Of a DNA stretch of 58,441 bases, positions 7,647 to 50,358 are shown piece by piece. Within the stretch, counting starts at the first letter, position 1. Every line of letters starts with the position of its first letter. Under the pieces are notes generated by a model. It was not told where the DNA came from. It was given only the letters and a program-made list of their open reading frames with translations, and searched no databases. Source of the stretch: a virus. The position numbers were made by a program, and so were the translations under genes. The stretch covers positions 110,471-168,911 of IMG/VR virus record IMGVR_UViG_3300017917_002605, one strand, 5' to 3'.

Positions 7647-8096
7647 TCAAGTTAATCCAAGTTCATCTTCAGTGATGATTTGAAACTTCCATCCATGTTC
7701 CTGACAGAATTCGTCAGCGGCTTTCCATTTCATCTGATTCACGGCGTAAGTTGCCGCTTCCTCTAGAAACCTCTTTGTTTTTCTCTTTTGTGTTGGTTTC
7801 TGAGTCTGTTTCTTTGGTTTGACCTCAATTACGTAGGTCATCACAGTACCATCTTTCCTTTTCATCTTTGCAACAAAGTCGGGAAAGTATCTGTGTTTTC
7901 GTCCATCCACAGGCGATATATACGGGATTACCAATTCTTCACTTGCCCACCATAGAACGGATGGGTCACGGTCGAAGTGTTTCATCAATTTAAGTTCCCA
8001 TGAGGAACGGTAGATGATGTTTTTCGCATCACCCTTATACTTAGAGGGGTTTGTGGGAGTAAATATTCCCTTGTACGTTTTATTGCCGAAAGACAT
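7647..8096 (-). CDS. 4: Head completion nuclease-like protein gp4
   Basis: 149 aa (T4 gp4 is 150). The family signature is plain: TYKGIFTPTNPSKYKGD, RSSWELKLMKHFD, WASEELVIPYISP and RYFPDF. The order E (ASEE), PD (FPDF) and ExK (IEVKPKK) fits a PD-(D/E)XK nuclease core. In T4, gp4 acts after DNA packaging and before tail joining. It is the first gene of the minus-strand block; its ATG overlaps the plus-strand late box 8096-8103. No Shine-Dalgarno is apparent. Confidence 0.88.
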   Translation of the reverse strand: MSFGNKTYKGIFTPTNPSKYKGDAKNIIYRSSWELKLMKHFDRDPSVLWWASEELVIPYISPVDGRKHRYFPDFVAKMKRKDGTVMTYVIEVKPKKQTQKPTQKRKTKRFLEEAATYAVNQMKWKAADEFCQEHGWKFQIITEDELGLT

Positions 8097-8103
8097 ATAA
8101 ATA
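8096..8103 (+). promoter_or_regulatory. T4-type late promoter TATAAATA upstream of gp48
   Basis: An exact TATAAATA lies 24 bases before the gp48 start. With initiation about six bases downstream, a short leader including AGGAAA (8118-8123) would result. The box overlaps the start codon of the divergent gp4 gene, so the two directions share one 31-bp gap. Confidence 0.7.
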
Positions 8104-28757: not shown

Positions 28758-28765
28758 TATAAATA
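28758..28765 (+). promoter_or_regulatory. T4-type late promoter TATAAATA opening the adhesin array
   Basis: An exact TATAAATA ends 23 bases before the ATG of the 108-aa gene, leaving room for a short leader that contains AAGGGA. It is the best candidate promoter for the fibre-tip array up to the terminator at 39436. Confidence 0.65.
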
Positions 28766-29894: not shown

Positions 29895-30071
29895 ATGAAT
29901 TTGTTGGAAAAAATTATTTCTTTATATCCGGAATTAGAAACATTTAATTTTGCTTCCGGAATAATTACGTTACAAAACGATAGTGACGGAAAAGGCGACT
30001 ACATAGCCAAATGGGAACACCCAACACTTGCACAACCAACAAAGGAACAGTTAGATGCCATTAGTTCTTAA
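29895..30071 (+). CDS. Family-1 small tip-partner protein
   Basis: 58 aa, too short for usual gene calling. It shares IYPEL-, DGKGDYIAKWEHP- and PTxEQLD-type motifs with the genes at 30573 and 37080. Each copy directly follows a C1q-like tip. It overlaps the next fibre gene by 17 bases, implying coupled translation. Likely a chaperone or cap for the preceding tip, like the small assembly proteins that accompany fibres in other phages; this is inference. Confidence 0.7.
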   Translation: MNLLEKIISLYPELETFNFASGIITLQNDSDGKGDYIAKWEHPTLAQPTKEQLDAISS

Positions 30072-30573
30072 CGGTACAGGTACAGTAACAGGTTTGGCAG
30101 CTGGTGGATTGCCAGATGCAACCATTACTCAGTCCGAATTGGTTTCTGGTATTGCGGGAAATGGTCCTGTTTTTGCTAGTGGTTCGACAGGTTTGACAAG
30201 TATTTCGGCCACAACTTGGACAGCATATACAAATTTTTCTGAAAGCCAATTCGATACAATTAATGGATTTAACAGAACAACTGGAAGATATCAACCAAAC
30301 GTTGCTGGTTATTATTGGGTACAAGGTATAGTAGATTGTGGATATTCTGGTGTAACGTCTACTGCTATTTACGCTTCTATTTTTAAAAATGGAAATAACT
30401 ATAGAGGTGGCACTGCTGGCCAGTATGCGTCAGGAGCATATCCTGCCATCCTTTGCACAAGTGTTGTTTATTTAAATGGCACAACAGATTATATTCAAGT
30501 TTATTGTTACACTTTGCAGTCGATAAGCAACACATCTGGTTCACTTATGGCTTGTATGATTAGGAGTGCATAA
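30055..30573 (+). CDS. C1q/TNF-like receptor-binding tip (class A)
   Basis: 172 aa. A short anchor (PLVLNGTGTVTGLAAGGLPD) is followed by a C1q-like jelly roll: FSESQFDTINGFNRTTGRYQ, PNVAGYYWVQG, IFKNGNNYRGG and YLNGTTDYIQVY. The core matches the class A tips at 29342 and 36424, but the loops differ. Its start lies inside the previous small gene, and its stop overlaps the next start (TAATG). Confidence 0.72.
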   Translation: MPLVLNGTGTVTGLAAGGLPDATITQSELVSGIAGNGPVFASGSTGLTSISATTWTAYTNFSESQFDTINGFNRTTGRYQPNVAGYYWVQGIVDCGYSGVTSTAIYASIFKNGNNYRGGTAGQYASGAYPAILCTSVVYLNGTTDYIQVYCYTLQSISNTSGSLMACMIRSA

Positions 30574-30746
30574 TGCATTTGGTAGAAAAAATTAGAAAAG
30601 TATATCCAGAACTAAAAGATACTGATTTTTTTTCAATCATTATTGTTCAAGATGACAGTGATGGCAATGGTCCTTATATCAAACAGTGGAATCACCCAAC
30701 ACTACCAAGACCAACACAAGAACAACTAGACGCAGTTACAGAATAA
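30573..30746 (+). CDS. Family-1 small tip-partner protein
   Basis: 57 aa. It matches the 29895 and 37080 proteins: KVYPELKDTDF near the start, DDSDGNGPYIKQWNHP in the middle and PRPTQEQLDAV at the end. The TAATG overlap with the C1q-like tip upstream indicates stoichiometric coupling. Function unknown; cognate assembly factor is the favoured inference. Confidence 0.7.
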   Translation: MHLVEKIRKVYPELKDTDFFSIIIVQDDSDGNGPYIKQWNHPTLPRPTQEQLDAVTE

Positions 30747-30756
30747 GGCATAACAA

Positions 30757-31872
30757 ATGAGTGTAATTTATAGTGGAACAGGCATAACATTTGATGATGG
30801 TTCTGTGCAAACTAATAGTTGGACAGGATTCAAAAATCGTATCATCAATGGTGATATGAGAATTGACCAGAGGAACAACGGTTCATCAGTTTCTATCACT
30901 CTTGGAACAAGTAATGGTTTTGTTGTTGATAGATGGCGTTTTCAAAATGCTGGTGGTAGTTCTAGTGTTTTTTCTGCACAGAGAGTTACTGATGCGCCAG
31001 CTGGATTCACTAACTCTTTAAAAGTTACCACAACAACTGCCGCATCAACTCAGGCGGCCGATTCGAAACATCTGTGGTTACCTATCGAAGGATTTGATAC
31101 TGCCGATTTAGATTTTGGTACCGCATCAGCTAAAACTGTAACTTTGTCTTTTTGGGTCAAAAGTTCTAAAACAGGTAATTTTGGTGCAGCTATATCTAAT
31201 GACGGCGCCGCCAGAGCATATAGTTTTCTTTACAACATATCTCAAGCAGATACTTGGGAATATAAAACTGTAACTATTCCTGGTGATACTGTTGCGCCGG
31301 CTTGGTCTAAAAATAATTTTACAGGTATGCGTGTCAACTTCAACATTGGTTCTGGTTCAAATTATACTACAGTACCAAATCAATGGGGTGCTGGTCCCGA
31401 CCGTGGTGCAAATGGACAAATTACTTTACTAGATACATTAAATGCAACATGGCAGATTACTGGTGTACAATTGGAACGTGGAAGTCAAGCATCAAGTTTT
31501 GAATATCGTCCTTATGGAACTGAGTTGGCGTTATGCCAAAGATATTACTGGCGAATTTCTGGATTTTCTGGTCCTTCCGGTTATCCTTCAGTTGGTTCTG
31601 GAACACTCAGAGCTTCAAATATTGCTCGTTTATATGTTAAATTTCCAGTTTCTATGAGAAGCGCTCCAACACTCAATTTTTCTGGTTCTATTAGTGGTAC
31701 AAGCGGAGTTGTAGAAAATACTGTATCATCAATATACGGACAGTATGCTTCAACAGAAACTTCTTTGTTTGATTTGTTGTTTAGTGCCACCACATTTACA
31801 ACAGGATATGGCGTAACTGTATTTGTTAATAATGCATCTACAAATTATGTAGAGGCTTCAGCGGAGTTATAA
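30757..31872 (+). CDS. INGDM-type carbohydrate-binding-like fibre tip (class B)
   Basis: 371 aa. The anchor ([20 protein letters not shown]) is followed by the class B core: [47 protein letters not shown] and [15 protein letters not shown]...LCQRYYW. This looks like a CBM-type jelly roll found in many phage fibres, then a variable beta tip. It ends in SAEL. A family-2 small gene starts one base later. Confidence 0.78.
30835..30876 (+). repeat. 42-base near-identical block shared with 38264-38305
   Basis: The DNA encoding [14 protein letters not shown] in the class B tips at 30757 and 38129 differs at one base in 42, including silent positions, while flanking DNA has diverged. It marks recent duplication or exchange. 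Confidence 0.8.
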
Positions 31873-31873
31873 A

Positions 31874-32050
31874 ATGGAATATAAACTTCAACCTCCTTTT
31901 AGAATTGGTGAAGAAAGTGGTGGCGTAATACGTAAAAGTGATGGCGCTTGTATACCCTTTGACCCAGCCAACACCGATTATCAAGAATACCTAAAGTGGC
32001 TTGCTGAAGGTAACGAACCACTTCCTGCGGATGAACCACCGAGCGAATAA
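31874..32050 (+). CDS. Family-2 small tip-partner protein
   Basis: 58 aa. The shared motif is [20 protein letters not shown] followed by EGN and an acidic Pro-rich tail. The same motif occurs in the genes at 34545 and 39271 and, diverged, at 35773. All four follow class B tips. Similar short segments accompany fibre genes in many phages, consistent with a fibre-assembly function. Confidence 0.75.
31970..32014 (+). repeat. 45-base near-identical block shared with 34623-34667
   Basis: Encodes [15 protein letters not shown] in two family-2 small genes, with a single base difference between copies. Confidence 0.8.
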
Positions 32051-32058
32051 ATAAAAAC

Positions 32059-33219
32059 ATGGCATACTTAGGAAATAACTCATTACCTTTTGACCCAACC
32101 AGAACCGCAGCACAACCCCGTGATGCGGAAAGATTCTCTGGTAACGGTTCAACGGTCAATTTCACATTATCACGTACAGTAAATAATCCTACTGATGTTG
32201 AAGTATTTGTTGAAAACGTTCAGCAAGAACCAATTGTTGCTTACAATATTGTTGGTACTACACTATCATTTACCGAAGCACCACCATCCGGTTCACAAAA
32301 CATCTATGTAATTTACCGTGCATTTAATACTGGTGCTCAAGTTTATGTGCCAGACGGTTCTATTACATACGCTAAGTTGGCTAACAACCTAAAGTTGTTC
32401 ACGAGCGACAACTTAACACCAAACGGCAACAATTCAGTATTCACACTTTCTGATACTCCACCGGATGCAAACACTGTTATCGTATCTGTTGATGGTATTG
32501 TTCAGAGAGCACCAGTTCATTACACTGTTTCTGGACAAACAATTACATTCACATCTCCACCACCAGCTGGTTCAAATGTGCATGTTCGTCACCTTGGTAT
32601 TAGAACAACGGAAACATTGACTGCTATTGCAGCCAATACTTTTATTCCTCAGCCAACAATCAGTTCACCAACAATAACTGGAACAACAACAATTTCAGGT
32701 TTGTTGCCTGCGGCCGCAAACACCACTCAAATTGGTTCTTCAACACAACCATTTGCTGTTGGTCATTTCAATGGTATTAAGTTTCCAGGAACACAATCGG
32801 CAAGTGCTGACGCAAATACACTAGATGATTATGAGGAAGGTACTTGGACTCCAAGTATTCAAGGAAACGCTGCTGCCGGCACGGTCACTTATGGTGCATT
32901 AAGATATGGTTATTACACAAAAGTAGGTAGAAAAGTAACTGTAGGTGGAAGGATAGATTATTCAAATTTCACTGGAGCCTCTGGTTATTTACTCATAAAT
33001 GGACTCCCATTTACATCATTAGGTTCATTAGAATTTATTGGCACATTTATGACAGAGAATTTGGTTTATCCTACCAGCAGTAATTATTGTGTTACTTACA
33101 TATCTGCATCCGCATTTGTTATTCCTTGGGGAATAAGAGATAATGGAGCTTGGCAAACATTTCCTGTTACAGACACGGCCGCAAATATAATTTTTACAAT
33201 CACTTATTTTACAAGTTAA
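32059..33219 (+). CDS. Fibre protein with DDYEEGTWTP tip (class C)
   Basis: 386 aa. Two N-terminal beta modules of the type FSGNGSTVNFTL...FTEAPPSG repeat at about 28-95 and 110-180 (LTPNGNNSVFTLSDTPPDAN). A stalk follows, then the class C junction SADANTLDDYEEGTWTPSI and a beta tip of about 130 residues. The first module is shared with the 140-aa gene at 36002, the junction with the 198-aa gene at 37260. A late-like box AATAAATA (32046-32053) precedes it by five bases. Confidence 0.75.
   Translation: MAYLGNNSLPFDPTRTAAQPRDAERFSGNGSTVNFTLSRTVNNPTDVEVFVENVQQEPIVAYNIVGTTLSFTEAPPSGSQNIYVIYRAFNTGAQVYVPDGSITYAKLANNLKLFTSDNLTPNGNNSVFTLSDTPPDANTVIVSVDGIVQRAPVHYTVSGQTITFTSPPPAGSNVHVRHLGIRTTETLTAIAANTFIPQPTISSPTITGTTTISGLLPAAANTTQIGSSTQPFAVGHFNGIKFPGTQSASADANTLDDYEEGTWTPSIQGNAAAGTVTYGALRYGYYTKVGRKVTVGGRIDYSNFTGASGYLLINGLPFTSLGSLEFIGTFMTENLVYPTSSNYCVTYISASAFVIPWGIRDNGAWQTFPVTDTAANIIFTITYFTS
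32800..32854 (+). repeat. 55-base conserved junction block shared with 37461-37515
   Basis: Encodes the class C junction (SADANTLDDYEEGTWTP). Only a few bases differ from the copy at 37461, whereas upstream anchors and downstream tips are unrelated. Confidence 0.75.
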
Positions 33220-33223
33220 TAAT

Positions 33224-33481
33224 ATGAGTTTAACAAAAGAAACACTAATTGATAAAATTGAAGTTGTGGAAAACGGCACTGTACAAGTGCGTCAAGTTAC
33301 ACGCATCATGGAAGACGGTAATCAACTATCACAATCTTTTCACCGTTGGACCATTTCTCCAGGTCAAGATTATTCCGACCAACCAGATAATGTCAAAGCA
33401 ATTTGCCAAGTAACGCATACTCCAGAAGTTGTTGCTGCATATCAAGCAAAACTGGAAGAAATTAATCTAAGAGCTGAATAA
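33224..33481 (+). CDS. Family-3 small tip-partner protein
   Basis: 85 aa. Highly similar to the 84-aa product at 37873: VQVRQVTRIMED, HRWTISPGQDYSDQ, DNVKAICQV and AAYQAKLEE are shared. Both follow class C (DDYEEGTWTP) tips. The stop overlaps the next tip's ATG (TAATGG). No similarity to families 1 or 2 is visible. Assembly or capping role inferred from position. Confidence 0.75.
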   Translation: MSLTKETLIDKIEVVENGTVQVRQVTRIMEDGNQLSQSFHRWTISPGQDYSDQPDNVKAICQVTHTPEVVAAYQAKLEEINLRAE

Positions 33482-34548
33482 TGGGAATTCAAACAGCACA
33501 ACAAGCACTAGAAAATGAATTAGGTGCATCACCATTTGGTTTTAAAAACATCATAATGAATGGTGATATGTCCGTTAATCAACGAGGCAACACTTCAATA
33601 ACTGTTGGTTCGGGTCAGGCAAACGGCCAAGCTGCATTTCTTACAGACAGATGGCGTTGCTGGTCAGCAGCCAACGGTAATACCTTAGCTGCAACATTTG
33701 AACAAGTTACTGATGCTCCCGAAGGTTTCAAGTACAGTGTAAGAGCAACACCTACTGTCACAGGAACACCCAACAGTCAATTTTATTCTTTTATTTGGCA
33801 AGGCGTAGAGTATAATAATATTCGAAGACTGAAGTGGGGTACTGGACAAGCTTTACCTTTGACTTTATCTTTTTGGGTTAAATCTTCATCGACAGGCACA
33901 TTTTCTGCAATTGTAACCAACAACGGTAATAATGGCATGTCATTTAAAATTTGGCGTGCCACATATACAGTTAATCAATCAAATACTTGGGAATATAAAA
34001 CAATAAGTATTGTTGGTGATACGGATTCCACTTGGTTAAATGCCACTTCGGATAATGGTGTAGGATTATTTGTTGGATTAACTCTGGGTGGTACAACCGG
34101 TATTACTACACCTGTTAATACATGGGATAATACTGCTGCTTATAATCGTGTTGGTGACTTCAATTTCTTCTCATCAACAAGCAATACTTGGCAAGTTACC
34201 GGCATTCAATTAGAAATAGGCCGAGAAGCTACGCCTTTTGATTTTAGACCATATTCAACTGAGTTGTCTCTTTGTGAGAGATATTATGAGGTTTGTGTTG
34301 GTGGTTGGCGTGGTTATGGATATGGTTTTATTGGTGCTGCTGGTGTAAATTTTAGGCAGAAAAAAAGAGCAACGCCAACTGTAACCTTTGTATCTTTTAA
34401 TGCTTCGGAAAATACAGACGGTAGTAATGCGTATTCAGCAAACATTACTGTAAATGGATTTGAGGCTAGATGTGCCTTAACCTCTGGCGGCGGCGCACCA
34501 AATTTTGGTTCTTTTTCTGCAACATATAAATCAGAGATTGAGTTATGA
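33481..34548 (+). CDS. INGDM-type carbohydrate-binding-like fibre tip (class B)
   Basis: 355 aa. It opens with an anchor of about 20 residues, then [51 protein letters not shown] and [15 protein letters not shown]...LCERYYEV. The core is the same as at 30757, 34707 and 38129; the C-terminal 80 residues are distinct. Its stop lies within the start of the family-2 small gene (ATGA-type overlap). Confidence 0.78.
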
Positions 34549-34700
34549 TGTATAAATTAACAGAAAACACAAAAGAAATTATTCGTTTGGTCGACAAAGC
34601 GACTATTCCTTTCGATTCAGAAAACACCGATTACCAAGAATACCTAAAGTGGCTTGCTGAAGGTAACACTCCTGAACCTGCGGACGAACCTACTAAATAA
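34545..34700 (+). CDS. Family-2 small tip-partner protein
   Basis: 51 aa (ATG ATG start; the second ATG at 34548 is possible). The core [20 protein letters not shown] and tail PEPADEP match the proteins at 31874 and 39271. A 45-base stretch (34623-34667) differs from 31970-32014 by a single base, showing recent duplication or exchange. Overlaps the class B tip upstream by four bases. Confidence 0.72.
34623..34667 (+). repeat. 45-base near-identical block shared with 31970-32014
   Basis: Second copy in the family-2 gene at 34545; the flanking codons differ, so similarity stops sharply at its edges. Confidence 0.8.
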
Positions 34701-34706
34701 AACATC

Positions 34707-35771
34707 ATGCCATTAAGTAGAATTAAATCAAATTCAATTAGTAATCCAGTATCTTTAACACAACCTGTTATTGATGGTGCAGGTTACTCTCAGTACCAGT
34801 ATAGAAATAAAATCATCAACGGTGATTTTTCTGTTTGGCAACGTGGTACGTCCGGAAGTTTAGTTGGTGGTCCAGGATATGTTTCTGCTGACCGCTGGAA
34901 AATTTATGTAAACTCTAGCACAACCATGACTTTATCCAGGCAAACATTTACTCCTGGACAAACTGAAGTTCCTGGTAATCCAACTTACTATGCCAGATTT
35001 GACTGGTTGGGTACCGGTGCTTCTCAATTTTTTAGTTTTGAACAAGCAATTGAAGGTGTTCATCACGGTGCTGGCGATTATTTGACCATATCATTTTACG
35101 CTAGAACCGAACAAGGTGATGACATGACTTTAGCTGTCACACAAAAATTTGGTACTGGTGGTTCTTCTGATGTAACTGTGACAAATACTCCTCTTTCTAT
35201 TGATACAACTTGGAAAAAATTTGTTGTAACTGTTGCTGTGCCTTCTATTTCCGGCAAAACAATTGGCACAGATAATCATTTACTGGTTACTTGGTTTAGA
35301 AGCGGCACACTAAATTCTTATTTGGATATTGCAGATGTGCAGGTAGAAGTTGGTCAAGTTGCTACTCCTTTTGAGCGTAGACCTCCAGCACTTGAATTGG
35401 CTTTGTGTCAAAGATATTTTTATAGTGTTACATTACCAAGAGATACTAACCTTTTTTATCCAGCAGTTGTATATGTTGGTGCCACTGGGACATTGATTCA
35501 GGCTCTGCCGGTGACATTATTAATGCGAACAACTCCAACCGCTTCTACCATTATAGGAACAGCAAAACCAACATTCATTCGATATGACTACGGCACAAGT
35601 TCTCAACAAACCATAACGTCCATTTTTGCTACTGTTCGTTCAACTTCTGGAACTTATTGGATGGAAGTCCAATATGTAGCCGTTGGTTCTTGGGGTTCAG
35701 CAGGACACTCAGGTGTTGTTTCATGGGACACAGGAACTAGCAGTGTAATTACTCTTTCTGCGGAATTATAA
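34707..35771 (+). CDS. INGDF-type carbohydrate-binding-like fibre tip (class B, diverged)
   Basis: 354 aa. It has NKIINGDFSVWQRG, SADRWKIY, LTISFYARTEQGDDM, TWKKFVVTVAVPS and IADVQVEVGQVATPF...LCQRYFYS, so the class B order is kept but the sequence has diverged more than the other three. Ends in LSAEL. The partner gene begins one base after its stop. Preceded by CTAAATAAA at 34693. Confidence 0.76.
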   Translation: MPLSRIKSNSISNPVSLTQPVIDGAGYSQYQYRNKIINGDFSVWQRGTSGSLVGGPGYVSADRWKIYVNSSTTMTLSRQTFTPGQTEVPGNPTYYARFDWLGTGASQFFSFEQAIEGVHHGAGDYLTISFYARTEQGDDMTLAVTQKFGTGGSSDVTVTNTPLSIDTTWKKFVVTVAVPSISGKTIGTDNHLLVTWFRSGTLNSYLDIADVQVEVGQVATPFERRPPALELALCQRYFYSVTLPRDTNLFYPAVVYVGATGTLIQALPVTLLMRTTPTASTIIGTAKPTFIRYDYGTSSQQTITSIFATVRSTSGTYWMEVQYVAVGSWGSAGHSGVVSWDTGTSSVITLSAEL

Positions 35772-35772
35772 T

Positions 35773-35991
35773 ATGGAACAAAAAATTAACGTTTATAAAC
35801 TAATCGACAGTATGAAAGATACCATTTATAGAACAAATGATAACGCTTGCATACCTATTGAACCTAGAAATATAGATTACGTCTTTTTTAAAATTGAAAT
35901 GGAAAAAGGTTTGGCTGAATTACAAGATGTTACAGGCACAGTTATGACTAGAGAACAATGCCTTGATTTTATCTCCAAATTACCAAACTAA
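35773..35991 (+). CDS. Diverged family-2 small tip-partner protein
   Basis: 72 aa, longer than the other family-2 members. It keeps the order YRTNDNACIPIEPRNIDYVF, then KGLAELQD and TREQCLDFISKL. The 'NACIP...P.N.DY' core aligns with [12 protein letters not shown] of the other members. It follows the most diverged class B tip, which suggests that tip and partner have diverged together. Confidence 0.68.
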   Translation: MEQKINVYKLIDSMKDTIYRTNDNACIPIEPRNIDYVFFKIEMEKGLAELQDVTGTVMTREQCLDFISKLPN

Positions 35992-36001
35992 ATAAAAGAC
36001 T

Positions 36002-36424
36002 ATGGCATATCTTGGTAACCAACAAATAAACGGAACCTTTAATTCCCAGTTCTTTTCTGGTGATGGTTCCACAACAGAATTCACGTTACAGTATTCAACT
36101 GGTAACGAAGCTTCCGTATTGGTCTTCATCACTGGTGTTAAACAGCAGACCACTACCTATGCATTGATTAACGGTAAGATTGTTTTTACTGAAGCGCCAC
36201 CAGCTGGATACAATAACATTGAATTGGTTTATCTTGGTGACCGTGTTCAAGTTAATCCTTACCTAAGTGCAGATTCACAAGGTATTATCAGACTTAACGC
36301 AAGCGTATTGACAGAAAACGTGACAATTACAACCGGTTATAATGCATCTTCTGCCGGTCCATTGACCATTGCAAATAACGTTGTTGTAACAATCGCAAAC
36401 AACTCTACTTGGACGGTGTTCTAA
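36002..36424 (+). CDS. Fibre anchor/stalk protein with GPxTI terminal module
   Basis: 140 aa. The first 85 residues match the N-terminal beta module of the 386-aa fibre (FSGDGSTTEFTL; FTEAPPAGYNN). The last 30 residues (SSAGPLTIANNVVVTI, then WTVF) match the end of the 71-aa protein at 29125. It lacks a tip; the following gene, overlapping by one base, supplies a C1q-like one. It could be a natural connector or a remnant of a longer fibre. Confidence 0.7.
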   Translation: MAYLGNQQINGTFNSQFFSGDGSTTEFTLQYSTGNEASVLVFITGVKQQTTTYALINGKIVFTEAPPAGYNNIELVYLGDRVQVNPYLSADSQGIIRLNASVLTENVTITTGYNASSAGPLTIANNVVVTIANNSTWTVF

Positions 36425-37080
36425 TGGCAGGCACAATTATTGCAGATTACATCCGTGCGGATGCTAACAAATTAAGTTTGAATGTAGGCAATACTACTTT
36501 TGCCACAATTAATTCTTCAGGTTTTTTCAGTAACACCGGTGTTCAAATTATTGACCAAAATGGTCAAGTTGGTGCATTATCTGTAGGTACCAACCAATTA
36601 CAAACTGGTGCTGTTACACAAACAAAAATTGGTTCTAATGTTGCTGGAACAGGCCCAATTTTTATAACATCAATGGGTGCGGCACAAACTTTAACAAGTG
36701 CTGTTTGGACTAAAGTTGCCTTTGATACAGAAAGTGTTGATTCACATAACTGTTATAACACTTCTCTTTATAGATTTACGCCGACTGTTGCCGGTTATTA
36801 TCAATTCACATTACAATTCACAGCTGGTACAGGTAATATTCAAGCAGTTCAAAGCGGACTTTATAAAAACGGAAGTGCAATTGCATGGAACGTAAATTAT
36901 TTAATGTCTGTAAGTTATGGAGATGATTTAACATCTTCTTTGACAAAATTGGTTTATATGAATGGTACTACAGACTATATTGAACCTTATGGCTATGTGG
37001 TTGACGCTTCTGCCGGTAGTGATGTTATATTTTCAAGCATATATTCTCATTTTGAAGGTTTCTTGGCAAGGGCTGCATAA
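36424..37080 (+). CDS. C1q/TNF-like receptor-binding tip (class A)
   Basis: 218 aa from the ATG in TAATGG at 36424; an upstream in-frame ATG at 36409 lies inside the previous gene. The anchor MAGTIIADYIRADANKLSL is shared in form with the genes at 37260 and 38129. The C-terminal 125 residues are C1q-like: FDTESVDSHNCYNTSLYRF, PTVAGYYQFTLQF, LYKNGSAI, YMNGTTDYIEPYGYV and FEGFLARAA. The stop overlaps the next small gene. Confidence 0.75.
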   Translation: MAGTIIADYIRADANKLSLNVGNTTFATINSSGFFSNTGVQIIDQNGQVGALSVGTNQLQTGAVTQTKIGSNVAGTGPIFITSMGAAQTLTSAVWTKVAFDTESVDSHNCYNTSLYRFTPTVAGYYQFTLQFTAGTGNIQAVQSGLYKNGSAIAWNVNYLMSVSYGDDLTSSLTKLVYMNGTTDYIEPYGYVVDASAGSDVIFSSIYSHFEGFLARAA

Positions 37081-37256
37081 TGAATTTAACGCAAAAAATT
37101 TTAAAAATATATCCTGAATTGTCACAAAAAGATTTTTCTGGAAAAGTTATTGAATTGCGAAATGATTTGGACGGAAAAGGTGATTACATCGCCAAATGGG
37201 AACATCCTACATATCCTAGACCAACGCAAGAACAATTAGATAGTGTGGAAGAATAA
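37080..37256 (+). CDS. Family-1 small tip-partner protein
   Basis: 58 aa. It aligns with 29895 and 30573: MNLTQKILKIYPELSQKDF at the start, DGKGDYIAKWEHP in the middle, PRPTQEQLD near the end. The DGKGDYIAKWEHP segment is identical to the 29895 product. It overlaps the stop of the class A tip by one base. Confidence 0.72.
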   Translation: MNLTQKILKIYPELSQKDFSGKVIELRNDLDGKGDYIAKWEHPTYPRPTQEQLDSVEE

Positions 37257-37259
37257 CAC

Positions 37260-37856
37260 ATGGCAGGCATTTTAAAAGTCGATAGAGTACAATCAGATTC
37301 CAATTTGGCATTTCAAATTGGTTCTTCTAATGTTGCCTATTTTAATACCACCGGTTTGAACATAACTGGCGGTGAAATTATTGCTGGTGGTTCCACTCTG
37401 AGAACATCTGGTGGCATGTTATATGCAAACAGTGGTATTGCTTTTCCTGGAACACATGTTGCAAGTGCTGACCCAAATACTTTAGATGATTATGAAGAAG
37501 GTACTTGGACTCCAACAACAATAAGTTTAAACAATATTAGTAGTATAACAATAAGTTATGCCTCTTATATTAAAGTAGGAAGATTAGTTCATTGTTCGAT
37601 GTATGGTACCGCTGCAGTAACTTCCACTTCCACCAATACCTATTTTGGTTTTTCTTTACCGTTTGTTGCAGTAAACAACACAGTCGCACCATCTGGGACA
37701 TTTAATTTTGCTGGCGCAACAAATAATTTAGGAACAGTGATTGATTGGTCAGGTTCCACCAATGATTATTTTGGTATTTGGGTGCCTTCGGCGAATATGT
37801 TGAATAACGGCACATTAAGTTGGCAATTAGGATTTACCTATCCAACAGTTTCTTAA
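37260..37856 (+). CDS. Fibre protein with DDYEEGTWTP tip (class C)
   Basis: 198 aa. A short MAGILKVDRVQSDS anchor, a stalk (NVAYFNTTGLNITGGEI), then the class C junction SADPNTLDDYEEGTWTPTTI and a beta tip of about 105 residues, much shorter than the 386-aa relative. The junction DNA (37461-37515) is nearly the same as 32800-32854. A family-3 gene follows 16 bases downstream. Confidence 0.75.
   Translation: MAGILKVDRVQSDSNLAFQIGSSNVAYFNTTGLNITGGEIIAGGSTLRTSGGMLYANSGIAFPGTHVASADPNTLDDYEEGTWTPTTISLNNISSITISYASYIKVGRLVHCSMYGTAAVTSTSTNTYFGFSLPFVAVNNTVAPSGTFNFAGATNNLGTVIDWSGSTNDYFGIWVPSANMLNNGTLSWQLGFTYPTVS
37461..37515 (+). repeat. 55-base conserved junction block shared with 32800-32854
   Basis: Second copy of the class C junction, lying between the MAGI-type anchor and a shorter tip. 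Confidence 0.75.
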
Positions 37857-37872
37857 TTTATGGTAGAAAAAA

Positions 37873-38127
37873 ATGAGTTTATCTAAAGAAATCAGTATCG
37901 ATAAAATCGAAGTTGTTGAACCTGGTATTGTTCAGGTTCGTCAAGTAACACGTATTATGGAAGATGATAATCTACTATCTTCTTCTTATCATCGTTGGAC
38001 TATTGCTCCCGGCCAAGATTATTCTGACCAATCAGATAACGTCAAAGCAATTTGCCAAGTAGTTCATACACCACAAGTTATTGCTGCATATCAAGCAAAA
38101 TTGGAAGAAAGCACATTAGGAAAATAA
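37873..38127 (+). CDS. Family-3 small tip-partner protein
   Basis: 84 aa, a close paralogue of the 85-aa protein at 33224: IDKIEVVEPG, VQVRQVTRIMEDDN, HRWTIAPGQDYSDQ and AICQVVHTP are conserved. The two genes differ at many silent sites, so the protein similarity is maintained by selection rather than very recent copying. It follows a class C tip. Confidence 0.75.
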   Translation: MSLSKEISIDKIEVVEPGIVQVRQVTRIMEDDNLLSSSYHRWTIAPGQDYSDQSDNVKAICQVVHTPQVIAAYQAKLEESTLGK

Positions 38128-38128
38128 C

Positions 38129-39274
38129 ATGGCAGGTACAATTGTAGTTGACCGAATTGAGTCTGATGGAAGTTATGCTTCCACAATTAATGTTGCCTCA
38201 AAGGTAAATTTTACTGGTGGTGTTCAAGTTGGCGGCCAAGATGCCACATTTGGTGGTATGCGTAATCGTATCATCAATGGTGATATGAGAATTGACCAAA
38301 GGAACGTTGGAGTAACCACTACTCCAGCTGATTTTGCTTTCATTACAGATAGATGGCAAGTTCGTCAAAGTACAGCTTCAAAAATGTCGGCTGGTCAAAG
38401 CACAGTAGTTCCCGTAGGTTTTTCTAATTCTTTAGCAATAACTTCTCTTTCATCATACACCGTTTTATCTAGTGATATTTACACAGTTAGACAACAGATT
38501 GAAGGTTTTAATACTTCAGATTTTGGTTGGGGTACCGCAAATGCAAAACCTGTCACCTTGTCTTTTTGGGTACGTTCTTCATTAACAGGAACTTTTGGTG
38601 GTTCTGCATTGAATAATGGTAACAATAGAAGTTATGTTTTTTCTTATACAATAAATCAAGCAGATACCTGGGAATATAAAACAATAATTATTCCTGGAGA
38701 CACTACAGGAACCTGGCAAACAAACAACCAACGTGGAGTTCAAATATCTTTTGGATTAGGTGTAGGTTCTACACAATCGGGTACAGCAGGCGCCTGGTCT
38801 TCTAATAATTATGCTTCCGTAACTGGTGCTGTTAGTTTGGTTGGAACAAACGCAGCTACTTGGTATTTAACTGGTGTCCAATTAGAATTAGGTTCTGTAG
38901 CAACATCTTTTGAAATGAGACCATATGGAGCCGAATTAGCTTTGTGTCAAAGATACTATTCAAAATCTTATAATATTAACGTTAAACCAGGAACAGTATC
39001 TTCTTATGCTGGTGTGCTGGCTGTGGTTCCTTATTCTACAGGTTTGCAATATACAACTTGGATTATTCAATTTAAACAAACCATGAGAACTGCTCCAACT
39101 GTTTTAGTGTATAGTCCTGAAACAGGAGCATCTGGTAACTGTTATAATGGCGCAGGAGATGTTGCAGCAGGAGCATCAAGTATTGGTGAATCTGGTTGTT
39201 TTGCTAGAAATACGGCCAGTGCAAGCACTGGATATTTTGCTTATATTCAATATACAGCTGAAGCGGAGTTATGA
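38129..39274 (+). CDS. INGDM-type carbohydrate-binding-like fibre tip (class B)
   Basis: 381 aa. The anchor [20 protein letters not shown] resembles those at 36424 and 37260, but the remainder is class [51 protein letters not shown] and [15 protein letters not shown]...LCQRYYSK. Thus anchor and tip come from different gene classes. It ends in AEAEL and overlaps the family-2 gene by four bases. Confidence 0.78.
38264..38305 (+). repeat. 42-base near-identical block shared with 30835-30876
   Basis: Second copy of the class B core block; one mismatch against the first copy, located at the junction between anchor and tip domains. Confidence 0.8.
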
Positions 39275-39423
39275 TGTATAAATTAGATTCAGAACCAAAT
39301 GTTGTTATACGTTTAAAAGATAAAGCCTGTATTCCTTTTGACCCAGCAAACACCGACTATCAAGAATATTTGAAGTGGTTGGAACAAGGAAACACTCCTG
39401 AACCGGCAGACCCAATAGAATAA
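39271..39423 (+). CDS. Family-2 small tip-partner protein
   Basis: 50 aa (double ATG start, second at 39274). Core [20 protein letters not shown], tail NTPEPADP. Last gene of the adhesin array, immediately before a terminator, and paired with a class B tip. The double-ATG start and four-base overlap are the same as at 34545. Confidence 0.73.
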
Positions 39424-43983: not shown

Positions 43984-44916
43984 ATGCCTACAAATTTTTA
44001 TTTCAATAACTTTCCATTAGGTCAAGTTACACAAGAACAATTACTTGTTGAAGACCTTGTTATTGAAGCCATGCAAATTCATGGTATGGATGTGTATTAT
44101 CTTCCTCGAGCAACACGTGATGAAGTTGATATGCTTTATGGTGAAGATACCTTAAAGGTTTACAATAAAGCATATCATATTGAAATGTACTTGGAAAACG
44201 TGACAGGTATGGACGGTGAACAAGACTTCATTTCTAAATTTGGTTTAGAAATTCGTGATGAAGTCACTATGTTAATGTCTCGCCGCAGATTTAAATATGT
44301 GACAAAAGGAACAAATATTATTAGACCAAACGAAGGTGATTTGGTTTATATCCCTTTGTTACAAAACTTTTTTGAGATTACATTTGTAGAACATGAAAAC
44401 AATCAAGCGATGTTCTATACACTTGGACGTGGCCGTGGCGGAAACGTTTATGTGTATGCAATGCGTATGAAACAGTTTGTTTTCTCTGAAGAAATTATTC
44501 AAACTGGTATTAGTGAAATTGATGACCAAATTCGTGACTCTTACCAGAGAACTCGTATTGTGTTGACTGATGCTGGTGCTCAAGGTATATACGAACAAGA
44601 TGAAATAGTTTTCCAATCCACAGACGGAACTTTGGCAAACGCTTCTGCTTCCGCAGTTGTCTATTCTGTAACTCCTACTGGTGTTATGGATGTTATTCGT
44701 TTAAGTGGAGAATGGAAAACTGGAAATATCGCAATCGGCAATACAACCAATGCACGTTGGGCAGTTGTTTCTATACCTGATGGTATTAACAATGAATCTC
44801 CAACCAGCCCATTTGATAACAATGTATTTGAAGATATTGTCGATAACACAAGAATTGAAACAGAATCAGATGCAATTTTGGATTGGTCTGAACGCAACCC
44901 ATTTGGTGAAGCATAA
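43984..44916 (+). CDS. 14: Neck protein gp14
   Basis: 310 aa (T4 gp14 is 256). Recognised by EDLVIEAMQIHGMDVYYLPR, EMYLENVTGMDGEQDFISKF and GLEIRDEVTMLMSRRRF. The C-terminal third (FQSTDGTLANASASAVVYSV) is a beta insertion relative to T4. It overlaps gp15 by one base (TAATG). Confidence 0.9.
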   Translation: MPTNFYFNNFPLGQVTQEQLLVEDLVIEAMQIHGMDVYYLPRATRDEVDMLYGEDTLKVYNKAYHIEMYLENVTGMDGEQDFISKFGLEIRDEVTMLMSRRRFKYVTKGTNIIRPNEGDLVYIPLLQNFFEITFVEHENNQAMFYTLGRGRGGNVYVYAMRMKQFVFSEEIIQTGISEIDDQIRDSYQRTRIVLTDAGAQGIYEQDEIVFQSTDGTLANASASAVVYSVTPTGVMDVIRLSGEWKTGNIAIGNTTNARWAVVSIPDGINNESPTSPFDNNVFEDIVDNTRIETESDAILDWSERNPFGEA

Positions 44917-45917
44917 TGTTAGGTAATAAACATTTTTACAATAGAACAATCAGAAAGATTGTGGTTGCTTTTGGTACTTTGTTCAATGACTTGTACTTGG
45001 TTCGTTACACAAAATCTGGTGACGAAAGAGAAAAAATTAAGGTACCATTAAATTATGGACCAAAAGAAAAGTATATCACCAGAATTACATCTGACCCAAC
45101 ATTAACAAAATCTGTTGCGGTCACTGTACCAAGGATGTCTTTTGAGTTGACCAGCATTTCATATGATGCTTCACGTAAACAACAAAGTACACTACAAAAC
45201 TTTGCCGCAGGTACTGGTGGTGCAATTAATAAACAATACGCCCCTATACCGTACAATTACGAATTTACATTATCAATCTATGTGAGAAACACAGAAGACG
45301 GTACACAAATACTGGAACAGATTCTTCCTTTCTTTACTCCAGATTTCACCGTGTCTGTAAACTTCATTCGTGAAATGGGTAAACCTTATGATTTACCTAT
45401 CATGTTGAATGACGTTTCAACAGAGATTGATTATGAAGGCGATATGTTAAATACCCGCCTTATCATTTGGACTTTAACTTTTACTGCCAAGTCGTTTATT
45501 TTCCCTGCTGTCAGAACTGCCAACACAGGTATTATCGAGACTGCCAATACAAATATGCATATCGACCTTTCTACACCTACAGTGCAGAAAGTTGGTTTGA
45601 ATACAGCAAATGGTTCTGGTTATCTAATGCCTGGTGAAGTGTTGCGTGTGGCTGACAAAGGTATTGTTGGCACGGTTGACTATTTCAGCAGACAATCACC
45701 AACATCAACATTGGTGGCAACAGACTTAAATAGATTGTTATCTATTGGTGATGTGGTTCGTGGAGACAACAGTAGAGCTTATTATCCTGTGTCTTCATTA
45801 GACCAAAATGCCATGAAAGTTGTGATTGTCAAGGTTGAGCCAGACCCAAACACAGCAGGACCTGATGATGAATTTGGTTTTGCGGAAACAATTACAGAAT
45901 TTCCCGATACATTATGA
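44916..45917 (+). CDS. 15: Tail sheath stabilizer/terminator gp15
   Basis: 333 aa (T4 gp15 is 272). Diagnostic segments: HFYNRTIRKIVVAFGTLFND, KVPLNYGPKEKYITRI and VPRMSFELTSISYDASRKQQ. gp15 forms the ring that ends the sheath and joins tail to neck. The C-terminal extension after about residue 235 contains an SH3-like stretch. Overlaps gp16 by four bases (ATGA). Confidence 0.9.
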   Translation: MLGNKHFYNRTIRKIVVAFGTLFNDLYLVRYTKSGDEREKIKVPLNYGPKEKYITRITSDPTLTKSVAVTVPRMSFELTSISYDASRKQQSTLQNFAAGTGGAINKQYAPIPYNYEFTLSIYVRNTEDGTQILEQILPFFTPDFTVSVNFIREMGKPYDLPIMLNDVSTEIDYEGDMLNTRLIIWTLTFTAKSFIFPAVRTANTGIIETANTNMHIDLSTPTVQKVGLNTANGSGYLMPGEVLRVADKGIVGTVDYFSRQSPTSTLVATDLNRLLSIGDVVRGDNSRAYYPVSSLDQNAMKVVIVKVEPDPNTAGPDDEFGFAETITEFPDTL

Positions 45918-46324
45918 AAAAGATGGAAGAAAAATTAGCAGATATTTTTGACGTTGAACCTATTGTACAAAAACCAGAGGTTCAAACTGAAGTTCTGCCA
46001 GCAGTTATTGAAGAAACTGTAAATAACGATACCGAAACAGATTTTGAGTTTGCTCGTAATAATATGAAAGAACTCATTAGAAAAGGTAATCAAGCAGTAG
46101 ATAACATTCTTGAAGTGGCAAAAGCCACCGACCACCCAAGAGCTTTTGAAGTTGTTGCCACACTGATTAATTCTGTTGCTTCAATGAATAAAGATTTGAT
46201 GGATATTCGAAAGAAAAAACAAGACCTTACTGGTGAAAAGAAAACTCAACAGATTAACGTAGATAAGGCGGTGTTTGTTGGTTCCACTACAGACCTAATT
46301 CGACAAATCAAGGAAAATAAATAA
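45914..46324 (+). CDS. 16: Small terminase subunit gp16
   Basis: 136 aa (T4 gp16 is 164). The core ARNNMKELIRKGNQAVDNIL, EVAKATDHPRAFEVV and NKDLMDIRKKKQDL matches the T4 TerS helical oligomerisation region. The N-terminal 40 residues are acidic. TerS forms the ring that recognises DNA and regulates gp17. The large subunit follows only after an intervening Dps-like gene. Confidence 0.88.
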   Translation: MKKMEEKLADIFDVEPIVQKPEVQTEVLPAVIEETVNNDTETDFEFARNNMKELIRKGNQAVDNILEVAKATDHPRAFEVVATLINSVASMNKDLMDIRKKKQDLTGEKKTQQINVDKAVFVGSTTDLIRQIKENK

Positions 46325-46328
46325 AATT

Positions 46329-46763
46329 ATGGAAACCTTAATCCAACAACTTAAAGTAATTCTTGGTACAAATTTTCATTTCTACCAAAAAACACAGTGC
46401 TTTCATTGGAATATAGAAGGCGCAGACTTTGTACAATATCACGAATATCTTGGTGATTTGTATGGTGCCGTTTATGCAAACCACGACACTATTGCCGAAA
46501 AGATTAGAATGTTAAAAGCTTACGCTCCAACAGGCATGAATCGTTTAATAGAACTTTCTGATATTGAGGACGTAGATAACATTCCTGATGCTCGCACTAT
46601 GTTCTCTATTTTAGAACGTGATAATGACCGTCTAATTTTCCACATTCGTGCAGGTATTGTTGCGGCCGATAATGCTAATGAACCTGCAATTTCAAACTAC
46701 TTACAAGATTTGTTAGACCAACATGCAAAACACGGTTGGTTCCTAAGAAGCATCAACAAGTAA
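46329..46763 (+). CDS. dps: Dps-like ferritin (DNA protection / iron oxidation)
   Basis: 144 aa, an all-helical ferritin-like protein. The Dps signature is clear: H26-W-N (FHWNIEG), H38 (YHEYLGDLY), D53 and E57 (DTIAEKIRML). The spacing H-12-H-15-D-4-E equals that of the E. coli Dps ferroxidase ligands (H51, H63, D78, E82). The C-terminal helix (LLDQHAKHGWFL) is typical. The N-terminus lacks the basic tail that E. coli Dps uses for DNA binding. Likely forms a dodecamer that oxidises Fe(II) with peroxide. It sits in the same direction between TerS and TerL, with a late-like AATAAATA (46316-46323) five bases upstream. Confidence 0.88.
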   Translation: METLIQQLKVILGTNFHFYQKTQCFHWNIEGADFVQYHEYLGDLYGAVYANHDTIAEKIRMLKAYAPTGMNRLIELSDIEDVDNIPDARTMFSILERDNDRLIFHIRAGIVAADNANEPAISNYLQDLLDQHAKHGWFLRSINK

Positions 46764-46769
46764 TTATTA

Positions 46770-48404
46770 ATGAGTAGTGATGGATATCTTGGTAATTCTA
46801 GTTTAAAAAGGGTAGGAGAGGTAATCTCCTACACCGAAGAACAGGCAATTGAACTTGCAAAATGTATTGATGACCCTGTTTACTTTATCAAGAATTACGT
46901 AAAGATTGTTAACGTGGATAGGGGTCTTGTCCCCTTTGAGATGTGGCCATTCCAAGAGGATATGGTTAACACGTTTCATCAAAATCGTTTCTCAATCGCA
47001 AAGATGCCCCGACAGGTTGGTAAAACTACCACTGCTGCGGGTTATATGCTTTGGTGCGCTCTGTTCCAAGAGAACTACAACATTGCCATTTTGGCCAACA
47101 AAGGTTCTTTGGCACGTGAAATTCTTGGACGTATTCAGTATGCATATGAATACCTGCCAAAGTGGTTGCAACAAGGCATCGTTACCTGGAACAAAGGTAA
47201 CATTGAACTAGAAAACGGTTCAAAGATTAATGCATACGCAACATCTGCCGCTGGTGTTCGTGGTGGTTCTTACAACCTAATTTTCCTTGACGAATTCGCA
47301 TTCGTGCCTAAGAACATGGCCGATGAATTCTTCACATCTACTTACCCTGTTATCTCCTCAGGTAAGACAACCAAAGTTATTATTGTTTCAACTCCTTTTG
47401 GTCTAAACCACTTCTATAAGATGTGGGTTGATGCAACCGAAGGCCGTTCACTGTACAAACCCTGTGAAGTTCACTGGTCAATGGTACCAGGTCGTGATGA
47501 AAAGTGGAAAGAAGAAACGATTCGTAACACCAGTGAAGAACAGTTTAGACAAGAATTTGAAACTGAATTCATTGGTTCTTCTGCAACTCTCATTTCTGGT
47601 TCTAAACTAAGAAGTCTTGCTTTTAGAAACCCATTGTCCTCAAATGAAGGTTTTGATATATATGAGGAACCACAAAAAGGACACTTCTACGTACTAAACG
47701 TTGACTGTGCCGAAGGTGTGTTAAAAGATTACTCAGCAATCTCGGTAGTTGATGTTACTGAGATTCCGTATAAACTGGTTGCAAAATTCAGAAAAAACGA
47801 CCTGCCTCTATTACTATTTCCTAACTTTATCTTCCAGATAGGTATGAAATACAACGAGGCATTTGTATTGGTTGAAACCAATAACATAGGACAACAGGTA
47901 GCAGACATTCTACACTATGACCTAGAATATGAAAACATCTTTAAATTGGAACATCATTCAATTAAAGGTCAACATATTTCATCAGGTTTCAAACGTTCAA
48001 TTTCCTTAGGTTTAAAAACTACGATATCAGTAAAGAAAATAGGTTGTGCCAACCTTAAAACTTTGATTGAAAATGATAAGTTACTGATACCGGATTTCGA
48101 TACTATTGCCGAACTGAATACTTTTGTGAGGGTTAAAAACTCTTATGAAGCCGAAGAAGGTAATAATGATGACTTGGTGATGACCCTTGTTATGTTTGCA
48201 TGGTTGACGGCACAGACGTTCTTTAAAGAGAACTCAAATACCGATATTAGAGAGAGATTGGTTCAGGAACAAAAAGATTTGTTTGATGAAAACCTGCTTC
48301 CTTTCGGTTTATATGATGATGGAACGAAAGAAGAAGTAACTGTGGAAGATGGAGATGCATGGTCTTCTTCCAATTTTAATGGTTATTTCCCATCAACTTT
48401 CTAA
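46770..48404 (+). CDS. 17: Large terminase subunit gp17
   Basis: 544 aa (T4 gp17 is 610). ATPase: Walker A at residues 79-87 (MPRQVGKTT), Walker B and catalytic Glu at D174-E175 (LIFLDEF), coupling motif near 205 (IIVSTPFG). The C-terminal RNase H-like nuclease starts at D312 (NVDCAEG), with later acidic residues in GNNDDLVM. It packages DNA into the prohead through the portal and cuts concatemers. Six bases separate it from the Dps-like gene. Confidence 0.95.
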   Translation: MSSDGYLGNSSLKRVGEVISYTEEQAIELAKCIDDPVYFIKNYVKIVNVDRGLVPFEMWPFQEDMVNTFHQNRFSIAKMPRQVGKTTTAAGYMLWCALFQENYNIAILANKGSLAREILGRIQYAYEYLPKWLQQGIVTWNKGNIELENGSKINAYATSAAGVRGGSYNLIFLDEFAFVPKNMADEFFTSTYPVISSGKTTKVIIVSTPFGLNHFYKMWVDATEGRSLYKPCEVHWSMVPGRDEKWKEETIRNTSEEQFRQEFETEFIGSSATLISGSKLRSLAFRNPLSSNEGFDIYEEPQKGHFYVLNVDCAEGVLKDYSAISVVDVTEIPYKLVAKFRKNDLPLLLFPNFIFQIGMKYNEAFVLVETNNIGQQVADILHYDLEYENIFKLEHHSIKGQHISSGFKRSISLGLKTTISVKKIGCANLKTLIENDKLLIPDFDTIAELNTFVRVKNSYEAEEGNNDDLVMTLVMFAWLTAQTFFKENSNTDIRERLVQEQKDLFDENLLPFGLYDDGTKEEVTVEDGDAWSSSNFNGYFPSTF

Positions 48405-48456: not shown

Positions 48457-50358
48457 ATGGGATTTCAATTATCACCAGGTGTAGTCACATCAGAAATTGA
48501 TTTGACCACCATTATTCCTGCGGTAGCTACCTCTATTGGTGCTGTTGCTGGTAAGTTTGGTTGGGGACCTGTAAACGTTGTTACTTCTATTTCTGACGAA
48601 GTACGTTTGGTAGACCGTTTCGGTAAACCAGATGCAAGTAACTATGAATACTGGTTCTCTGCTGCAAACTTTCTAGCTTATGCAAACAATCTACGTGTAG
48701 TTCGTGCCGCAAACACAACATCCACACTAAACGCTACAGCAAATGGTAACGGCGTTCTTATTGAGAGCGAAGACGATTACGAAGCAAACCACTCCAGCGG
48801 TGTTACAACTTATGGTGTTGCTGCTGCTCGTTGGCCAGGTGCAATCGGTAACTCTTTAAAAGTTTCCATCTGCCCTAACGGTGCCGCTTTCGCATCTAAT
48901 CTAACCACACAATCTACCTCTGTTGTTGCAAACGCAGCAAACGTTGGTGCAACTACTGTTGATTTGTCTGCTGATACATCTGCATACTTGGTTGCTGGCG
49001 ATTATGTTTCTTTTGACGCTGGTACAACTTATATTAAAGTTGCCACTGTTAATACTGGTAACGTTGTTCTTTCTTCTGCTCTTACTGCTAACGTTGCAGC
49101 TAACACTTCTATCCTACGTAAGTGGGAATATGCAAACGAATTCACTGCTGCACCAAGCACTTCTGATTACGTTGCAAATCTAGGTGGCGCTGACGATGAA
49201 CTACACGTAATCGTTATTGACGAAGACGGTTTATTCACTGGTACTCCAGGTACAATCGTTGAAAAATATGAATTTGCTTCTAAGGCATCTGATGCTAAAG
49301 ACGCACAAGGCAATACCTCTTACTACAAGAACCAACTTGAACAAAAGTCCAAGTATGTTTGGTGGTTGTCTCACCCAACTGGTGCAACCAACTGGGGTAC
49401 TTCTGCTGCTGGTAAGACTTTCACCGCTGTTAACAAGGTAACTACTGTTTCTCTTGCTGGTGGTGCTGAAGGTGATATCGGTCAACAAGAATTGATTGCC
49501 GCTTACGACAAGTTTGCTAACGCTGACACAGTAGATATTTCTCTATTGATTGCTGGTCCAGCTACCGCAACTATTGTTAACTATCTAATCGATAACATTG
49601 CTCTAGTACGTAAAGATTGCGTAGTGTTCGCATCTCCTCCAAAGGCAGCTGTTGTTGATAACGTAGGCAATGAAGTTACAGATTCTGTTGCTTTCCGTGA
49701 TTCTCTAACATCTTCTTCTTACTCTGTTCTAGATAGCAACTGGAAATACCAGTATGACAAGTATGCTGACGTATATCGTTGGGTACCTTGCAACGCTGAT
49801 ATCGCTGGTCTATGCGCTCGTACAGATGCTGAACGTGACCCATGGTTCTCTCCGGGTGGTCTAAACCGTGGTATTCTAAAGAACGTTGTTCGTCTAGCTT
49901 ACAATCCAGTTAAGTCTGAACGTGATGACTTGTATGTTAAAGGTATCAACCCTGTTGTATCCTTCGCTGGTGAAGGCACAGTTCTATTTGGTGACAAGAC
50001 TATGCAGGCTAAACCTTCTGCATTCGACCGTATCAACGTTCGCCGTCTGTTCATCGTTCTAGAGAAAGCAATTGCTCGTGCTGCTCGTTACTCTCTATTC
50101 GAATTTAACGATGCATTTACCCGTGCTCAGTTTGTCTCCATTGTTGAACCGTTCCTACGTGATATTCAAGGTCGCCGTGGTATTACTGATTTCCGTGTTG
50201 TCTGTGATGAGACTAACAACACCGGTGAGGTAATAGATAGCAACCGCTTCGTGGGCGACATTTACATTAAACCTGCTCGTTCTATTAACTTCATTCAGTT
50301 GAACTTCGTTGCTGTTCGCACCGGCGTAAGTTTTGATGAAGTCGTAGGCAAGTTCTAA
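48457..50358 (+). CDS. 18: Tail sheath protein gp18
   Basis: 633 aa (T4 gp18 is 659). N-terminus QLSPGVVTSEIDLTTIIPAV and C-terminus RSINFIQLNFVAVRTGVSFD are classic sheath sequences, and DPWFSPGGLNRG is the central signature. The sheath contracts to drive the tube through the cell wall. Strong ribosome binding site and codon choice (AAC, TTC, CGT, GCT) point to high expression, similar to gp23. Confidence 0.95.
   Translation: MGFQLSPGVVTSEIDLTTIIPAVATSIGAVAGKFGWGPVNVVTSISDEVRLVDRFGKPDASNYEYWFSAANFLAYANNLRVVRAANTTSTLNATANGNGVLIESEDDYEANHSSGVTTYGVAAARWPGAIGNSLKVSICPNGAAFASNLTTQSTSVVANAANVGATTVDLSADTSAYLVAGDYVSFDAGTTYIKVATVNTGNVVLSSALTANVAANTSILRKWEYANEFTAAPSTSDYVANLGGADDELHVIVIDEDGLFTGTPGTIVEKYEFASKASDAKDAQGNTSYYKNQLEQKSKYVWWLSHPTGATNWGTSAAGKTFTAVNKVTTVSLAGGAEGDIGQQELIAAYDKFANADTVDISLLIAGPATATIVNYLIDNIALVRKDCVVFASPPKAAVVDNVGNEVTDSVAFRDSLTSSSYSVLDSNWKYQYDKYADVYRWVPCNADIAGLCARTDAERDPWFSPGGLNRGILKNVVRLAYNPVKSERDDLYVKGINPVVSFAGEGTVLFGDKTMQAKPSAFDRINVRRLFIVLEKAIARAARYSLFEFNDAFTRAQFVSIVEPFLRDIQGRRGITDFRVVCDETNNTGEVIDSNRFVGDIYIKPARSINFIQLNFVAVRTGVSFDEVVGKF

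Follow-up and report, generated by a model that had tools for sequence, protein, structure and literature searches.

The window, by which we mean the whole stretch of 58,441 nucleotides that was analysed (positions 110,471 to 168,911 of the IMG/VR virus record IMGVR_UViG_3300017917_002605), contains an open reading frame for a Dps-like protein between the genes of the two terminase subunits, in the following surroundings:

44916 to 45917, plus strand: gp15-like tail sheath stabiliser, in the same operon as dps (PF16724, 2.1e-69)
45914 to 46324, plus strand: terminase small subunit TerS (gp16-like), the upstream flank of the slot (PF11053, 4.8e-15; phrog_445, 2.8e-37)
46329 to 46763, plus strand: Dps open reading frame, 144 aa, with an ATG start (PF00210, PHROG 3636, Dps chains of the PDB)
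46770 to 48404, plus strand: terminase large subunit TerL (gp17-like), the downstream flank of the slot (PF03237, 2.8e-30; PF17289, 5.9e-12)
48457 to 50358, plus strand: tail sheath (gp18-like; phrog_23, 7.5e-134)

The intergenic gaps around dps are of 4 nt on the TerS side and 6 nt on the TerL side, and the setting is a T4-like structural module with gp13-, gp14-, gp15-, gp18-, gp19- and gp20-like genes and a prohead protease. The preliminary description had placed a ferritin-like protein of 144 aa between gp16 and gp17, which placement was borne out by the Pfam, PHROG and PDB matches along with those of the flanking terminase genes. No tRNAs were found in the window, nor any RNA families around the TerS–TerL slot. 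Elsewhere, at 29895–39423 of the window, open reading frames of 50–60 aa recur among the tail-fibre-like genes and have similar endings (HPT..PTQEQLD or PADEP).

Dps is a bacterial iron-oxidising protein used for DNA protection. The predicted product matched the Pfam family PF00210 (Ferritin) at 1.9e-15, with 57.4 bits against a gathering score of 24.5, as well as PHROG 3636 (2.5e-29) and, in the PDB, some 60 chains of Dps proteins, the best at 1.3e-12 (2.8e-54 when a profile was used); the matches to the narrower Dps equivalogs of NCBIfam fall under the cut-offs of those models. An AlphaFold2 model of the monomer, computed from the protein plus 42 related sequences, reached a pLDDT of 97.8 and predicts helices at residues 2–28, 34–61, 70–76, 88–115 and 119–143, of which the short one at 70–76 is the BC helix. 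The top solved structures retrieved with this model were all Dps, both by Foldseek (E about 1e-7) and by VIA-align (Z of 20–23, the leading ones at 0.9–1.2 A), with 2c41 aligning over 144 residues at 0.9 A (Z 23.4). The four-helix bundle with its BC helix, in a chain of a length in keeping with the class size of about 145–190 aa, is that of the family; on the strength of the profile matches and the model, we regard the assignment of the predicted product to Dps, within the ferritin superfamily, as confirmed. The nearest solved cellular Dps, PA0962 of Pseudomonas aeruginosa (8ff9), is alike in fold, length and the four iron ligands considered below, with 27% identity along the chain.

Residues H26, H38, D53 and E57 share the spacing of H51, H63, D78 and E82 of the E. 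coli Dps, as the preliminary description had claimed and as the alignment upheld; the E. coli numbering follows a sequence that we took to be that of the protein, and the PDB alignments give the same register. The four ligands are invariant across 132 distinct phage Dps and 78 cellular Dps, and likewise W27, Y45, R60 and W137. The fifth canonical ligand (D67 in E. coli, four residues past the second His) is in contrast replaced by G42, so that to call the ferroxidase site intact, as had been done, is too strong, since only four of the five canonical ligands are kept. At this position the 132 phage proteins have G in 66, N in 39, D in 15, A in 4, E in 3, K in 3 and S in 2, whereas the 78 cellular relatives have E in 57, M in 18, G in 2 and D in 1. 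An acidic fifth ligand therefore occurs in 18 of the 132 phage versus 58 of the 78 cellular Dps, in which comparison the cellular set was gathered with a pattern around HWN[VI]EG, and is accordingly biased towards that form, and includes at least one row (L165) that is probably a phage contig. PA0962 has Glu there in the PDB alignment, unlike the Gly of the phage protein. Because 18 of the 78 cellular members have Met at the position, we take the missing ligand for a variation inside the Dps family. The ferroxidase centre of the Listeria Dps is given as His31, Asp58 and Glu62 (PMC8389677), whose counterparts H26, D53 and E57 are all kept; since the residues of this Listeria-type centre are present, the main iron site of the phage Dps is probably functional. 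The second iron site, for its part, may be weaker, and the loss of the fifth ligand from most phage copies may have weakened or changed their reaction with iron.

As to DNA binding, the Lys/Arg-rich N-terminal tail of the E. coli-type protein is lacking: the first helix begins at residue 2, the first ligand lies at position 26 versus 51 in E. coli, and the pI is 5.4. Without a tail and at that pI, binding and shielding of DNA in the E. coli manner are unlikely. A Dps that protects without binding DNA is named in the title of the entry 1o9r, and as far as that title goes the tail-less phage protein would be similar.

Concerning expression, the late-promoter motif TATAAATA occurs three times in the window, no more than expected by chance, and none was found there at a sensible distance from dps; sigma-70-like sites likewise showed no excess over shuffled sequences. 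Two of the motifs, at 8096–8103 and 28758–28765, precede the gene starts at 8128 and 28789 by 23–24 nt, and might be T4-type late promoters of those genes. Late expression of dps itself is plausible.

The distribution of the gene was surveyed in IMG/VR with the nearest 80 TerL relatives per query, the loci being contigs of which some are redundant or partial. For the window-type TerL, Dps lay between TerS and TerL in 70 of the 72 loci in which both terminase genes were visible, and in six more of the nearest 80 it adjoined TerL at the edge of a contig. The TerL of L001 as query gave Dps in the slot in 27 of 61 such loci, whereas those of the pelagiphage HTVC008M and the cyanophage S-PM2 gave none (0 of 71 and 0 of 13 such loci, respectively). 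A Dps neighbour was present for 122 of the 235 distinct TerL sequences, and on the TerL tree (built, like the others, with FastTree) this character required 5 gains or losses, against a mean of 78.5 upon shuffling. When we searched by Dps alone, the order TerS–Dps–TerL held almost without exception among the matches listed. The gene is thus regularly found at this place in relatives of this phage; absence from all of the close ones, which in the preliminary description stood for a chance insertion, was looked for and is not the case, and the occupancy of 70 of 72 together with the 5 changes among 235 TerL sequences rules that explanation out. Moreover, the phage Dps is under purifying selection, the median dN/dS being 0.23 over 762 pairs.

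The gp16–gp17 interval has been described as an insertion hot spot of cyanomyoviruses (PMC3037559), and gp15–gp18 as their hyperplastic region (PMC2984593), both papers drawing on Millard 2009. The position is the same there, with cargo between the terminase genes, but the cyanomyovirus cargo is variable whereas in the clade of the window the slot almost always holds Dps. Our relatives agree with a cargo site, some holding other genes there and some none: the slot of HTVC008M contains a dioxygenase and a halogenase, and other slots a 2OG-Fe(II) oxygenase, a PAP2 phosphatase or an SNase, while some are empty. The SNase-like nuclease was seen in the slots of L359, L360, L363 and L398, of which at least L363 (record G012) keeps its Dps elsewhere. 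The 13 records with Dps have a single copy each. In three of them (G012, G014 and G015) the gene is retained although the slot does not hold it, the copy being at another locus—in G012 near clamp loader and DNA polymerase genes, and in G014 and G015 beside nucleotidyltransferase-type and small accessory genes, all names read from the sequence by eye.

The pairwise distances of TerL and TerS correlate (Spearman 0.53), but those of Dps follow neither TerL (0.05) nor TerS (0.07), and along the well-supported branches of the Dps tree the TerL type switches at least 5 times; from this want of co-divergence and these switches we conclude that Dps alleles are, to judge by the sequences, exchanged between phages at a fixed site. 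One pair of relatives, L057 and L067, have TerL sequences 98% identical and flanks about 95% and about 98% identical (counted from the alignment), and yet L057, a 9-kb fragment, lacks exactly the Dps open reading frame (region of L057:2896 versus L067:1570–2030). To judge by this clean absence, at least one relative can do without Dps in the slot, although a copy may lie outside those 9 kb. The difference may have arisen by natural deletion of Dps or by its recent gain.

These results bear on the link to packaging that had been drawn from the position of the gene. Such a role in its fullest form would have Dps made late with the terminase and packaged with the DNA or loaded on it, protecting the genome in the capsid or at ejection. 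In its favour, dps is co-directional within an operon of structural genes, with gaps of 4–6 nt, and mass spectrometry of purified particles identified proteins of the Dps family in two podophages, Privateer (PMC7881722) and SU10, where the protein is the product of a middle gene (PMC4281155). The C3 podophages (SU10, Privateer, 7-11 and P59) encode distant relatives (24–29% identity to the window Dps for 7-11 and P59) and differ in phage type and in the position of the gene; nevertheless, the presence of such proteins in two kinds of particles is the reason for which we still grant a virion role a small probability. Against it stand the unrelated cargo in the slots of sister clades, the non-packaging loci of Dps in G012, G014 and G015, the failure of Dps to co-diverge with the terminase, the absence in L057, and the lack of a DNA-binding tail or capsid-targeting extension, and on balance we consider it unlikely. 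Because the interval is a cargo site, the location of a gene in the packaging operon says little for a function in packaging; with sister clades holding other genes or nothing there, we dropped such a function as the main reading, and the place of dps looks more like a cargo slot than like a hint at a packaging role.

The phage Dps part from the cellular ones with two changes on a FastTree tree of few columns, and the closest cellular proteins, mostly proteobacterial, are only 30–38% identical. The phage lineage is thus separate. A phylogeny against bacterial Dps had been suggested for finding the donor host, but at that identity the cellular proteins are too distant for a donor to be named. 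The gene looks to have been owned by phages for a long time. One apparent cellular donor, L165 (CAIWHI010000271.1, in a Bacteroidetes MAG bin, a 44% match), was rejected because its surroundings are of phage type, like those of L002 and L163; it is probably a misbinned phage contig. The cyanophage sign psbA is absent from the phage record. That the gene should be a host gene recently captured and carried without benefit is scarcely credible to us: the hot spot accepts many genes, and L057 is cleanly without this one, but near-fixation in the clade, intact open reading frames, a dN/dS of 0.23, the small number of changes required on the TerL tree and a lineage distinct from the cellular Dps all speak against a passive passenger.

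With regard to function, the same phage record, outside the window, contains adjacent genes for an AhpC-type peroxiredoxin (motif FVCPTE) and an AhpD-type alkylhydroperoxidase (CHFCVKAH, with CxxC) at G000:20481–21663 (L486:1481–2663). AhpC was present in 3 of 25 related records, many of them partial, and all three are Dps-positive. When the AhpC of this phage was used as a pointer to the host, the best matches stood at 67% among the sampled members of one class and at 61% in another. From the presence of the pair, and from the AhpC records all being Dps-positive, iron and peroxide detoxification is the best-supported reading. The preliminary description had proposed protection of DNA or the handling of iron; anti-oxidative protection is now the likeliest form of this idea, with which the AhpC–AhpD pair fits, while a tail-type shielding of DNA has become unlikely. 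We therefore think it likely, with some room for doubt, that the phage-owned Dps is an auxiliary cargo whose cage oxidises and stores iron and limits Fenton damage during infection. The subunits would assemble into the usual 12-subunit cage and bind Fe(II) at sites between neighbours, to which one subunit would contribute H26 and H38 and the other D53 and E57. Hydrogen peroxide is the oxidant used by most Dps, and the phage protein would probably employ it to oxidise Fe(II), the Fe(III) being kept inside the cage; with both Fenton reactants so removed in the infected cell, the replicating and packaged phage DNA would be protected, as would the iron-using enzymes of the phage. Dps would in this way act beside the encoded peroxide defence of AhpC and AhpD. 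A DPS of gut phages, 'Gratiaviridae' and others, has been suggested to mitigate the oxidative damage of an infection (PMC8008677), a proposal close to ours, although the hosts there are anaerobic Bacteroides and a T4-like gp16–gp17 slot was not reported.

A broader proposal, which we offer tentatively and hold to be rather doubtful as a whole, is that a phage-specific Dps lineage, its di-iron site remodelled by loss of the fifth ligand, has become near-fixed in a large aquatic T4-like clade as a cassette swapped between phages at the slot and able to move to other loci, and that together with AhpC and AhpD it makes up a viral defence against iron and peroxide whose chemistry departs from that of cellular Dps. 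Two other functions have less to recommend them than the detoxification of iron and peroxide. Were the cage instead to store host iron for late needs, such as class I ribonucleotide reductase and tail proteins, and not for protection, the class I ribonucleotide reductase pair encoded in the genome and the four conserved iron ligands would be accounted for; the neighbourhood of dps has nevertheless no iron-uptake genes, and the AhpC–AhpD pair points to peroxide, so that we rate this supply of iron as quite improbable. Still less probable is a Dps that blunts an oxidative or iron-dependent response of the host to infection, for which a phage-specific lineage under selection, in a slot that gains other accessory genes, might argue, but our results point to no known defence system, and the fold and ligands are as in ordinary Dps.

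If the detoxification reading is true, the control of iron and peroxide is no oddity but routine when this large group of aquatic, uncultured phages infects its hosts, and phages that are nearly identical but differ in having Dps in the same slot provide a testable case. Phage Dps and the gp16–gp17 hot spot were already known, whereas the near-fixation of Dps there appears new: no report of Dps in that slot was found in a literature search limited to open-licence papers. Among cultured phages, 11 of 50,697 records had a Dps relative at the search sensitivity used, and these include one T4-like phage, the freshwater cyanomyovirus Synechococcus phage S-SRM01, whose Dps is 31% identical to that of the window; the gene is separated from TerL there by about 57 kb, in a different neighbourhood and not between TerS and TerL. 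Finally, in three of the environmental loci (L106, L139 and L159) TerL is in two pieces or about 0.6–1.2 kb from Dps, which arrangements possibly reflect introns or homing endonuclease insertions.
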